From: Desulfuromonadales bacterium
GTDB taxonomy: Bacteria > Desulfobacterota > Desulfuromonadia > Geobacterales > Pseudopelobacteraceae
Assembly: GCA_013349325.1 (NCBI GenBank)
Contig: DUZX01000016.1
Location: 1 to 64,000, forward strand
Length of the DNA stretch: 64,000 nucleotides
Direction: 5' to 3'
The notes under the pieces are model-generated. The model was not told the DNA's origin. It searched no databases and saw nothing but the letters and a program-made list of their open reading frames with translations. The first letter of the stretch is position 1, and each line of letters opens with the position of its first letter. Shown piece by piece: positions 43,372-45,527 of the stretch. The translations under genes and the position numbers were made by a program.

Positions 43372-44559
43372 GTGAGTGAAAGCAGGTCAGCGCGAATCTG
43401 GGAAGTCTTCCTGGTGTTTCTGCGGCTGGGGGTTTCATCTTTTGGCGGGCCGGTGGCCCATATCGGCTACTTCCGTGACGAATTCGTCGTGCGCCGTGCC
43501 TGGTTAAGCGACAAGGCCTACGGGGACCTGGTGGCCCTGTGCCAATTCCTGCCGGGACCGGCCAGCAGCCAGGTGGGCATGGGGGTGGGAATCAGCCGCG
43601 CCGGCATACCCGGGGCCATTGCTGCATGGTGCGGCTTTACCATCCCTTCAGCGGCGCTTCTGATTCTGTTTGCCCAGGGCATTGCCGGGCTGAGCGGCGG
43701 CACGCCGGGTTGGCTCCTTGGTCTGAAGGTTCTGGCGGTGGCCGTCGTAGCTCAGGCAGTGATCGGAATGGCAAAGAGTTTCTGCTGTGACCGAATGACC
43801 GGGGGTATTGCCATCACCTCCATGTCGCTGGTGCTGGCCAGTGGGAACGGGCTGACACAACTGGCGGCAATCGCTATCGGTGCGACTGCGGGGAGGATGT
43901 TCATCACGAGTCCTAATGACGATCACCATGACGGATTGCAGATACCCGTCAATCATACGCTGGCCATTGGCTGCATGATACTCTTTTTCCTGCTTCTTCT
44001 GGTTCTGCCCGTAGCGGCAATGGTTGCGCCTGGTCACGGCATAGAGCTGTTCGACCGATTCTACAGAGCCGGTGCGCTCGTATTCGGCGGCGGTCATGTG
44101 GTGTTGCCCCTGCTGCAGGCTGCCGTTGCCAAAGGGAACTGGATCAGTAACGAACTGTTCATGTATGGCTATGGTGCCGCCCAGGCAGTCCCCGGCCCGC
44201 TCTTCACTTTTGCCGCTTATCTGGGAGCCGCTGCCGTACCGGAGCCGCACGGTGTTCCGGGGGGCATGCTGGCACTGACAGCTATATTTCTCCCTTCCTT
44301 TCTGCTGGTCATAGCGCTTCTCCCCTACTGGGCAATGCTGCGTCACAATTCTGCTGCCCGTTCGACCCTGTCCGGGGTGAATGCCTCCGTCGTAGGGATT
44401 CTGGGTGCAGCCCTCTACCCCCCTCTCTGGACGTCCGCCATTAACTCCACCCGGGACATGGTGCTGGCAGTACTGGCATTCGGGATGCTGGTAGTCTTGA
44501 AACAACCACCATGGAGGGTCGTTATCTTTGCGTTACTGGCTGGAATGCTCTTCCAATGA
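43372..44559 (+). CDS. ChrA (CHR) family transporter
   Basis: The 395-residue integral membrane protein is a full-length, two-domain CHR transporter. Both halves show the repeat signature: FLRLGVSSFGGPVAHIGYFRDEFV with QFLPGPASSQ in the N-half (about 16-65) and AGALVFGGGHVVLPLLQAAV with AAQAVPGPLFTF in the C-half (about 232-290). Characterised members export chromate. Here it is bracketed by phosphonate genes, and its stop overlaps the ptxD start as ATGA, so the likely substrate is another oxyanion such as phosphite, phosphonate, phosphate or sulfate. Direction of transport cannot be decided from sequence. Confidence 0.85.
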   Translation: MSESRSARIWEVFLVFLRLGVSSFGGPVAHIGYFRDEFVVRRAWLSDKAYGDLVALCQFLPGPASSQVGMGVGISRAGIPGAIAAWCGFTIPSAALLILFAQGIAGLSGGTPGWLLGLKVLAVAVVAQAVIGMAKSFCCDRMTGGIAITSMSLVLASGNGLTQLAAIAIGATAGRMFITSPNDDHHDGLQIPVNHTLAIGCMILFFLLLLVLPVAAMVAPGHGIELFDRFYRAGALVFGGGHVVLPLLQAAVAKGNWISNELFMYGYGAAQAVPGPLFTFAAYLGAAAVPEPHGVPGGMLALTAIFLPSFLLVIALLPYWAMLRHNSAARSTLSGVNASVVGILGAALYPPLWTSAINSTRDMVLAVLAFGMLVVLKQPPWRVVIFALLAGMLFQ

Positions 44560-45527
44560 GCATGCCAATGGACAGACCCAAGGTGGTAATCACCCACTGG
44601 GTACACGATGACGTACTGCATTTCCTGGGGCAACACTATAACGTTGTAGCTAATACAACCAGGGAAACTCTCCCCAGAGAAAATATTCTTGCACGCTGCT
44701 CCGATGCCGACGGAGTGATCGTGTTTATGCCGGATCAGGTTGACGAAAAGTTTCTCGATCGCTGTCAGCGCCTCAAGGTCATCGCCGCAGCTCTCAAGGG
44801 TTTCGACAACATCGATGTTGACGTCTGCCAGCGGAGAGGAATTACATTCTCATATGTCCCGGATCTACTGACCGTGCCAACTGCTGAACTGGCCGTAGCG
44901 CTTTTGCTTGCCTTGGGGAGGTCGATGCTGCCCGGTGACCGGCTGGTGCGGAGTGGTTCTTTTCAAGGCTGGCGGCCGATACTGTATGGAAAAGGTCTCT
45001 TCGGCAGCACGGTTGGGATTTTGGGCATGGGGGCCATCGGCAGGGCAATTGCCGTAAGGCTGTCTGGTTTCGGGTGCCAGTTGCAGTATCATGACCCAGC
45101 TGTATCGTCTTTGAAAGAATGTTTCGGACTCAACATACTTCACGTGCCACTTCCAGACTTGCTGGCCCGGAGTGACTTCCTGGTTCTGGCCGCACCACTT
45201 ACTGCCGATACCTTCCACATAATTGATGAACATGCTATCGCACGGATAAAACCCGGGGCCTATCTGATCAATATATGTCGCGGATCGGTAGTGGATGAAG
45301 AGGCTGTGGCAAGGGGTATAGAGATTGGACAACTGGCCGGCTATGCTTCTGACGTGTTCGAATTTGAAGACTGGTCACGCCAAAATCGCCCACAATATGT
45401 CAATCCTGACTTGCTGTTGCAGCATGATCGCACGGTCTTTACTCCTCATCTTGGTTCGGCAGTGGATGATATCCGTCGTGATATTGCCATGGAAGCTGCA
45501 CGTGCCGTCGTGTCTATTCTCTATTAA
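44556..45527 (+). CDS. ptxD: Phosphite (phosphonate) dehydrogenase PtxD-like
   Basis: This 323-residue D-2-hydroxyacid dehydrogenase family enzyme resembles PtxD, which oxidises phosphite to phosphate with NAD. Matching PtxD landmarks are VVITHWVHDDVL (about 9-20), DGVIVFMPDQVD (about 47-58), AALKGFDNIDVD with the active Lys (about 75-86), VPDLLTVPTAELAVAL (about 95-110), the Rossmann motif GILGMGAIGRA (about 152-162), CRGSVVDEEAV with the catalytic Arg (about 240-250), the Glu in YASDVFEFEDW (about 262-272) and the His in FTPHLGSA (about 294-301). The ATG at 44556 is chosen for the ATGA overlap with the ChrA gene. Other hydroxyacid substrates remain possible. Confidence 0.85.
   Translation: MSMPMDRPKVVITHWVHDDVLHFLGQHYNVVANTTRETLPRENILARCSDADGVIVFMPDQVDEKFLDRCQRLKVIAAALKGFDNIDVDVCQRRGITFSYVPDLLTVPTAELAVALLLALGRSMLPGDRLVRSGSFQGWRPILYGKGLFGSTVGILGMGAIGRAIAVRLSGFGCQLQYHDPAVSSLKECFGLNILHVPLPDLLARSDFLVLAAPLTADTFHIIDEHAIARIKPGAYLINICRGSVVDEEAVARGIEIGQLAGYASDVFEFEDWSRQNRPQYVNPDLLLQHDRTVFTPHLGSAVDDIRRDIAMEAARAVVSILY

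Follow-up and report, generated by a model that had tools for sequence, protein, structure and literature searches.

A C-P lyase operon ends in a chromate-transporter-family gene that overlaps ptxD, a predicted phosphite dehydrogenase gene

The DNA analysed here (the window, 64,000 nucleotides from a Desulfuromonadales bacterium) carries a single run of genes on the + strand from phnW to ptxD (30067-45527), which is best explained as an operon for the assimilation of reduced phosphorus. Its last two genes overlap; they encode a long-chain CHR transporter (LCHR) of the ChrA type and a well-supported phosphite dehydrogenase. We tentatively propose, with slightly less than even confidence, that this CHR protein is a recruited oxyanion exporter that clears chromate-like anions taken in during phosphorus scavenging.

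Results

Organization of the phnW-ptxD operon

The genes follow the order phnW-phnX-phnC-phnD-phnE-GNAT-phnG-H-I-J-K-L-M-PhnA-like-TIM-CHR-ptxD (Table 1). The stop codon of the CHR gene and the start codon of ptxD overlap as ATGA (44556-44559), which confirms both the overlap and the gene boundaries of the original prediction, and from this overlap the two genes are probably co-translated. Because both frames belong to well-populated families, they are not chance frames. The CHR gene starts 22 bases past the stop of the TIM-barrel gene and is preceded by a GGAG motif. The pair had also been described as lying directly behind the C-P lyase genes; the C-P lyase operon is indeed upstream, but the immediate predecessors encode the PhnA-like hydrolase and the TIM-barrel protein. 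Between 43000 and 46000, promoter-like matches numbered 2 (1.9 expected by chance), with 0 between the CHR and ptxD starts, while terminator-like matches numbered 6 (2.3 by chance), including one where the TIM gene ends (43316-43337).

Table 1. Features of the phnW-ptxD gene run, with positions in the window
Feature	Position	Strand	Basis
phnW, 2-aminoethylphosphonate transaminase	30067-31215	+	NCBIfam equivalog, score above cut-off
phnX, phosphonoacetaldehyde hydrolase	31218-32048	+	NCBIfam equivalog, score above cut-off
phnC, phnD, phnE, phosphonate/phosphite-family ABC importer	32074-35005	+	PhnD above cut-offs of TIGR03431 and TIGR01098; C-D-E order kept in related phn loci
PhnO-like GNAT acetyltransferase	35005-35472	+	PF00583; best NCBIfam match aminoalkylphosphonate N-acetyltransferase, below cut-off
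phnG, H, I, J, K, L, M, C-P lyase machinery	35469-41152	+	PhnL and PhnM by NCBIfam; rest by sequence reading and gene order shared with related clusters
Alkaline-phosphatase-superfamily hydrolase, phosphonoacetate hydrolase-like (PhnA)	41260-42402	+	PF01663; TIGR02335 at 192 bits, below the cut-off of 408
TIM-barrel protein, AP_endonuc_2 family	42396-43349	+	PF01261; recurs in C-P lyase clusters
Long-chain CHR (ChrA-type) transporter	43372-44559	+	GTG start; PF02417 twice; TIGR00937 at 312 bits; clade with plasmid chrA
ptxD, phosphite dehydrogenase	44556-45527	+	Closest to solved PtxD and PtxD loci elsewhere; active-site residues kept

The PtxD homologue retains the active site of phosphite dehydrogenases

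Homology and active-site residues give good support to the assignment of ptxD as a phosphite dehydrogenase gene, whose product would oxidise phosphite to phosphate with NAD. The predicted protein has 323 aa from an ATG at 44556; the longer start proposed by the ORF finder (44511) is unnecessary. It shares ~54% identity with solved phosphite dehydrogenases, which it matches at about 350-378 bits, compared with at most 207 bits for the next family, the glyoxylate reductases. Its identity to PtxD from loci elsewhere is 51-57%. Residues were checked at the catalytic and pocket positions, in P. stutzeri numbering. Lys76, Arg237, Glu266 and His292 correspond to K81, R242, E271 and H298 of the window protein, in keeping with the active Lys, Arg, Glu and His segments named in the original prediction. 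The pocket residues Met53, Trp134, Tyr139, Ser295 and Arg301 are likewise kept (M58, W139, Y144, S301 and R307), and the equivalent of Glu175 is the acidic residue D180.

The ptxABCD operons of Pseudomonas stutzeri WM88, Prochlorococcus and Klebsiella plasmids resemble the window in combining a PtxD that has all checked active-site residues and a PhnD/PtxB-family ABC importer. Unlike in those operons, ptxD of the window closes a C-P lyase operon that also encodes PhnCDE, and a CHR gene directly precedes it.

Related phn loci lack a CHR gene

ptxD is rare among relatives of the window genome; counting the latter each time, it occurs in 2 of 98 relatives, 3 of 277 genomes of the class and 4 of 395 genomes of the phylum. 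One genome of the window's family (G060, locus L010) shares the order phnCDE-GHIJKLM-TIM-ptxD, with most proteins 62-82% identical to those of the window (43% for PhnG and PhnH). In contrast to the window, its TIM and ptxD genes almost touch, with no CHR gene between them, and the stretch read gave no match to phnW or phnX. The CHR protein of this genome, 58% identical to that of the window, is encoded on a different contig from the ptxD operon. The PhnA-like hydrolase gene, also missing from the L010 operon, has a relative inside the phn cluster of another locus (L158). In a further genome of the window's class (G891), ptxD is divergent from phnCDE, with no CHR gene nearby.

Within the phylum, a CHR gene was found in 0 of 26 phn loci, some of which lie on stretches that end at contig ends. 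On this count of 26 loci we rejected the idea that C-P lyase operons regularly include a CHR gene, and for the same reason the view that phn operons generally need such an exporter is unsupported.

A TIM-barrel (PF01261) gene is present in 10 of these 26 loci, often right behind phnM, and in L010 it stands directly before ptxD. PhnP was sought in 27 genomes and scored above its family cut-off in a single one, G271, where no TIM gene is seen. No paper on the TIM-barrel protein of C-P lyase loci was found in the open-licence literature.

The CHR protein is a diverged member of a plasmid and integron clade

The CHR protein of the window (395 aa) contains two PF02417 stretches and is thus of the long-chain type. 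In related genomes, the proteins nearest to it share 53-58% identity with it, and chrA products of plasmids, encoded on class 1 integrons and similar elements, are 54-56% identical over nearly the full length. The family is widespread on plasmids, with 2009 matching plasmid records. In a maximum-likelihood tree, the window CHR, placed as a diverged row, falls within the plasmid/integron chrA clade (support 100/100 for the clade as a whole and 93/96 for its inner fork with the window CHR, a fork that is not fully resolved). ChrA of pMOL28, ChrA of pUM505 and SrpC are distant from it in the tree (22-24% identity).

The chrA genes of E. coli pGN4554-5 and Comamonas sp. C11 illustrate both the likeness and the difference. 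Their products belong to the same clade, have two CHR domains and are 54% identical to the window CHR over the full length, but the plasmid and integron genes adjoin a PadR regulator or resistance genes, whereas the window gene sits in a phosphorus operon and is more diverged. Proteus strains with a sul1-linked integron chrA showed higher chromate tolerance than a strain without chrA (PMC6305713), and the nearest functional evidence for the clade therefore points to chromate export. A search by sequence found no solved CHR structure.

The window CHR looks functional, since it keeps all 21 of the 21 columns that are invariant in the other aligned CHR proteins. A comparison with residues essential in P. 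aeruginosa ChrA was set aside, as their numbering did not match the deposited pUM505 protein. The other nine clade members share 143 invariant columns; the window CHR departs at 18 of these, compared with 1-10 departures for those members themselves. Its branch length is 0.72, most clade members having 0.1-0.43 and that of Bradyrhizobium betae 0.69. Read from the alignment, divergence with a preserved core would fit either a changed cargo or relaxed selection.

The window genome encodes two further CHR proteins, a second long one (53% identity) and a short one. By our own reading of the sequences, the gene for one of the close CHR relatives adjoins a putative undecaprenyl-diphosphatase-like gene in three genomes (G000, contig C28; G014; G024). 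The second long CHR gene of the window genome (L016:6258-8410) has the same kind of neighbour, as in G014 and G024.

Unrelated CHR genes adjoin ptxD in other genomes

A total of 94 ptxD loci was collected, 67 of them distinct by sequence, to which a contig scan contributed the best 80 of 389 candidate ptxD places. Within this set, a CHR gene directly adjoins ptxD in 3 of the 67 other distinct loci, from two lineages. In two genomes (G420 and G485) ptxD is followed ~60 bases on by a CHR gene, and G420 also shows upstream genes for a PtxABC-type importer, giving the order ptxABC-ptxD-CHR. In the third (G484), the two genes are divergent and ~540 bases apart. About 0.08-0.12 adjacent cases would be expected among 67 loci (probability of two or more, 0.003-0.006), a rough figure that rests on 2-3 CHR genes per genome, ~3500 genes per genome, independent loci and random gene order. 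By this rough measure, CHR and ptxD are adjacent more frequently than by chance.

The linked CHR proteins of the three genomes share only 27-28% identity with that of the window and belong to other CHR clades. A single conserved, inherited CHR-ptxD pair was rejected on this basis, together with the lack of a CHR gene at ptxD in G060. A CHR gene of the window's own clade did not recur next to ptxD among the 67 other distinct loci (scan: best 80 of 389). The search for other chrA-ptxD pairs, suggested with the original prediction, thus had a divided outcome: the window-type pair was seen only here, but unrelated CHR genes adjoin ptxD above chance. Viral contigs contained no ptxD relative. The open-licence literature on ptxD with chrA gave no operon link, although an earlier mention elsewhere is possible.

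In Pseudomonas otitidis (L097:2753-9002), a CHR gene is divergent from the ptxABCD operon, ~1.2 kb upstream. One genome (G490) has two ptxD copies on separate contigs (L117 and L118), both without a CHR gene.

Discussion

Taken together, these results are compatible with a model in which PhnCDE would import phosphonates and perhaps phosphite, and PhnWX and the C-P lyase would break C-P bonds. As anion uptake rises under phosphorus scarcity, tetrahedral oxyanions that the cell does not want, either chromate or an anion resembling sulfate, would enter, and the CHR protein, whose gene would have been recruited recently in the window lineage, behind the TIM gene and ahead of ptxD, would pump them out. 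The direction of transport, the cargo and the link to phosphorus scarcity are what we infer, as is the gain of the CHR gene here rather than its loss in G060.

The export reading draws on the 50-55% identity to plasmid and integron ChrA and the shared clade, and on the operon's own PhnCDE importer. Because PhnCDE is present, and because the CHR-bearing ptxD operon of G420 has a PtxABC-type importer, a CHR protein is not needed for substrate uptake. Uptake of stray oxyanions is plausible since the window PhnD also matches TIGR04553, a putative selenate-binding family, below its cut-off (E 1.5e-35). A lead that ties CHR proteins to phosphorus comes from cyanobacteria. In Synechococcus PCC 7002, chrA is induced by phosphorus deprivation, and a chrA knockout grew to 64% of wild type under phosphorus deficiency and to 99% at standard phosphorus (PMC11358556). 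In Prochlorococcus and Synechococcus of low-phosphorus waters, enrichment of chrA goes along with that of an arsenic efflux gene (PMC10119275; PMC3686209). The simplest reading of these data is export of unwanted oxyanions that enter with raised anion uptake. Counting against the export reading is the unusual divergence of the window CHR within its clade, which could reflect a changed cargo.

It is also quite possible, though we would not call it probable, that a mobile or duplicated chrA-type gene simply became inserted upstream of ptxD, behind the TIM gene, as a chromate exporter unrelated to phosphorus, with the ATGA overlap reflecting compact packing. Such an insertion would agree with the abundance of the family on plasmids, the additional CHR genes of the window genome, the absence of CHR genes from the 26 phn loci, and G060, where TIM and ptxD stand together and the 58% identical CHR gene lies elsewhere in the genome. 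It accounts less well for the three other genomes in which a CHR gene adjoins ptxD, from two lineages, where about 0.08 cases would be expected (scan: best 80 of 389). The overlap with ptxD suggests co-translation, and the gaps flanking the CHR gene are too small for a mobile element.

Improbable, in our judgement, is a CHR protein whose cargo is phosphite, phosphate or a product of phosphonate breakdown, with phosphite in and phosphate out as one example. Its role would be comparable to that of PtdC, an MFS protein and a known non-ABC phosphite importer of Desulfotignum (PMC4046663). The ptxED-ptdFCGHI cluster of Desulfotignum phosphitoxidans resembles the window in grouping ptxD with a gene for a non-ABC transporter, but there the transporter belongs to the MFS, the role lies in energy metabolism and a chromate transporter is unmentioned (PMC4046663). 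The overlap of the CHR gene with ptxD, the immediate succession of ptxD and CHR in G420 and G485 and the raised divergence of the window CHR would all suit a phosphorus cargo. The poor growth of the cyanobacterial chrA knockout at low phosphorus leaves this reading some further room. Against it, importers are already present in both the G420 operon and the window, the linked CHR proteins of other clades give no sign of a phosphite-specific lineage, and most ptxD loci have no CHR gene (scan: best 80 of 389 candidate places). The suggestion in the original prediction that the CHR protein may carry phosphite or phosphate is thus unsupported, given its chromate-exporter clade, the PhnCDE importer of its own operon and the closest phn-TIM-ptxD operon, which lacks a CHR gene.

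A more specific form of this idea, to which we give little credence, is that the cargo changed within the chromate-exporter clade. The window CHR would then move a phosphorus oxyanion together with PtxD (phosphite in, phosphate out, or a toxic phosphonate product out), and other CHR clades would have been recruited independently in a deltaproteobacterial/Syntrophaceae lineage and in a Nitrospiraceae genome. Transport of a phosphorus anion by the CHR protein, if real, would extend a family known for chromate to a new class of substrates. It would also help to explain why, in cyanobacteria, the effects of chrA knockouts and the abundance of chrA follow low phosphate. Under the more modest reading, in which the CHR protein exports unwanted anions, the locus offers a straightforward genetic way to ask whether cells that scavenge phosphorus use CHR proteins as protection against stray oxyanions.

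Elsewhere in the same clade, the long-branched chrA gene on a Bradyrhizobium betae plasmid (L187:2995-6063) adjoins soxB, a neighbour that a sulfate-exporting CHR protein would fit.
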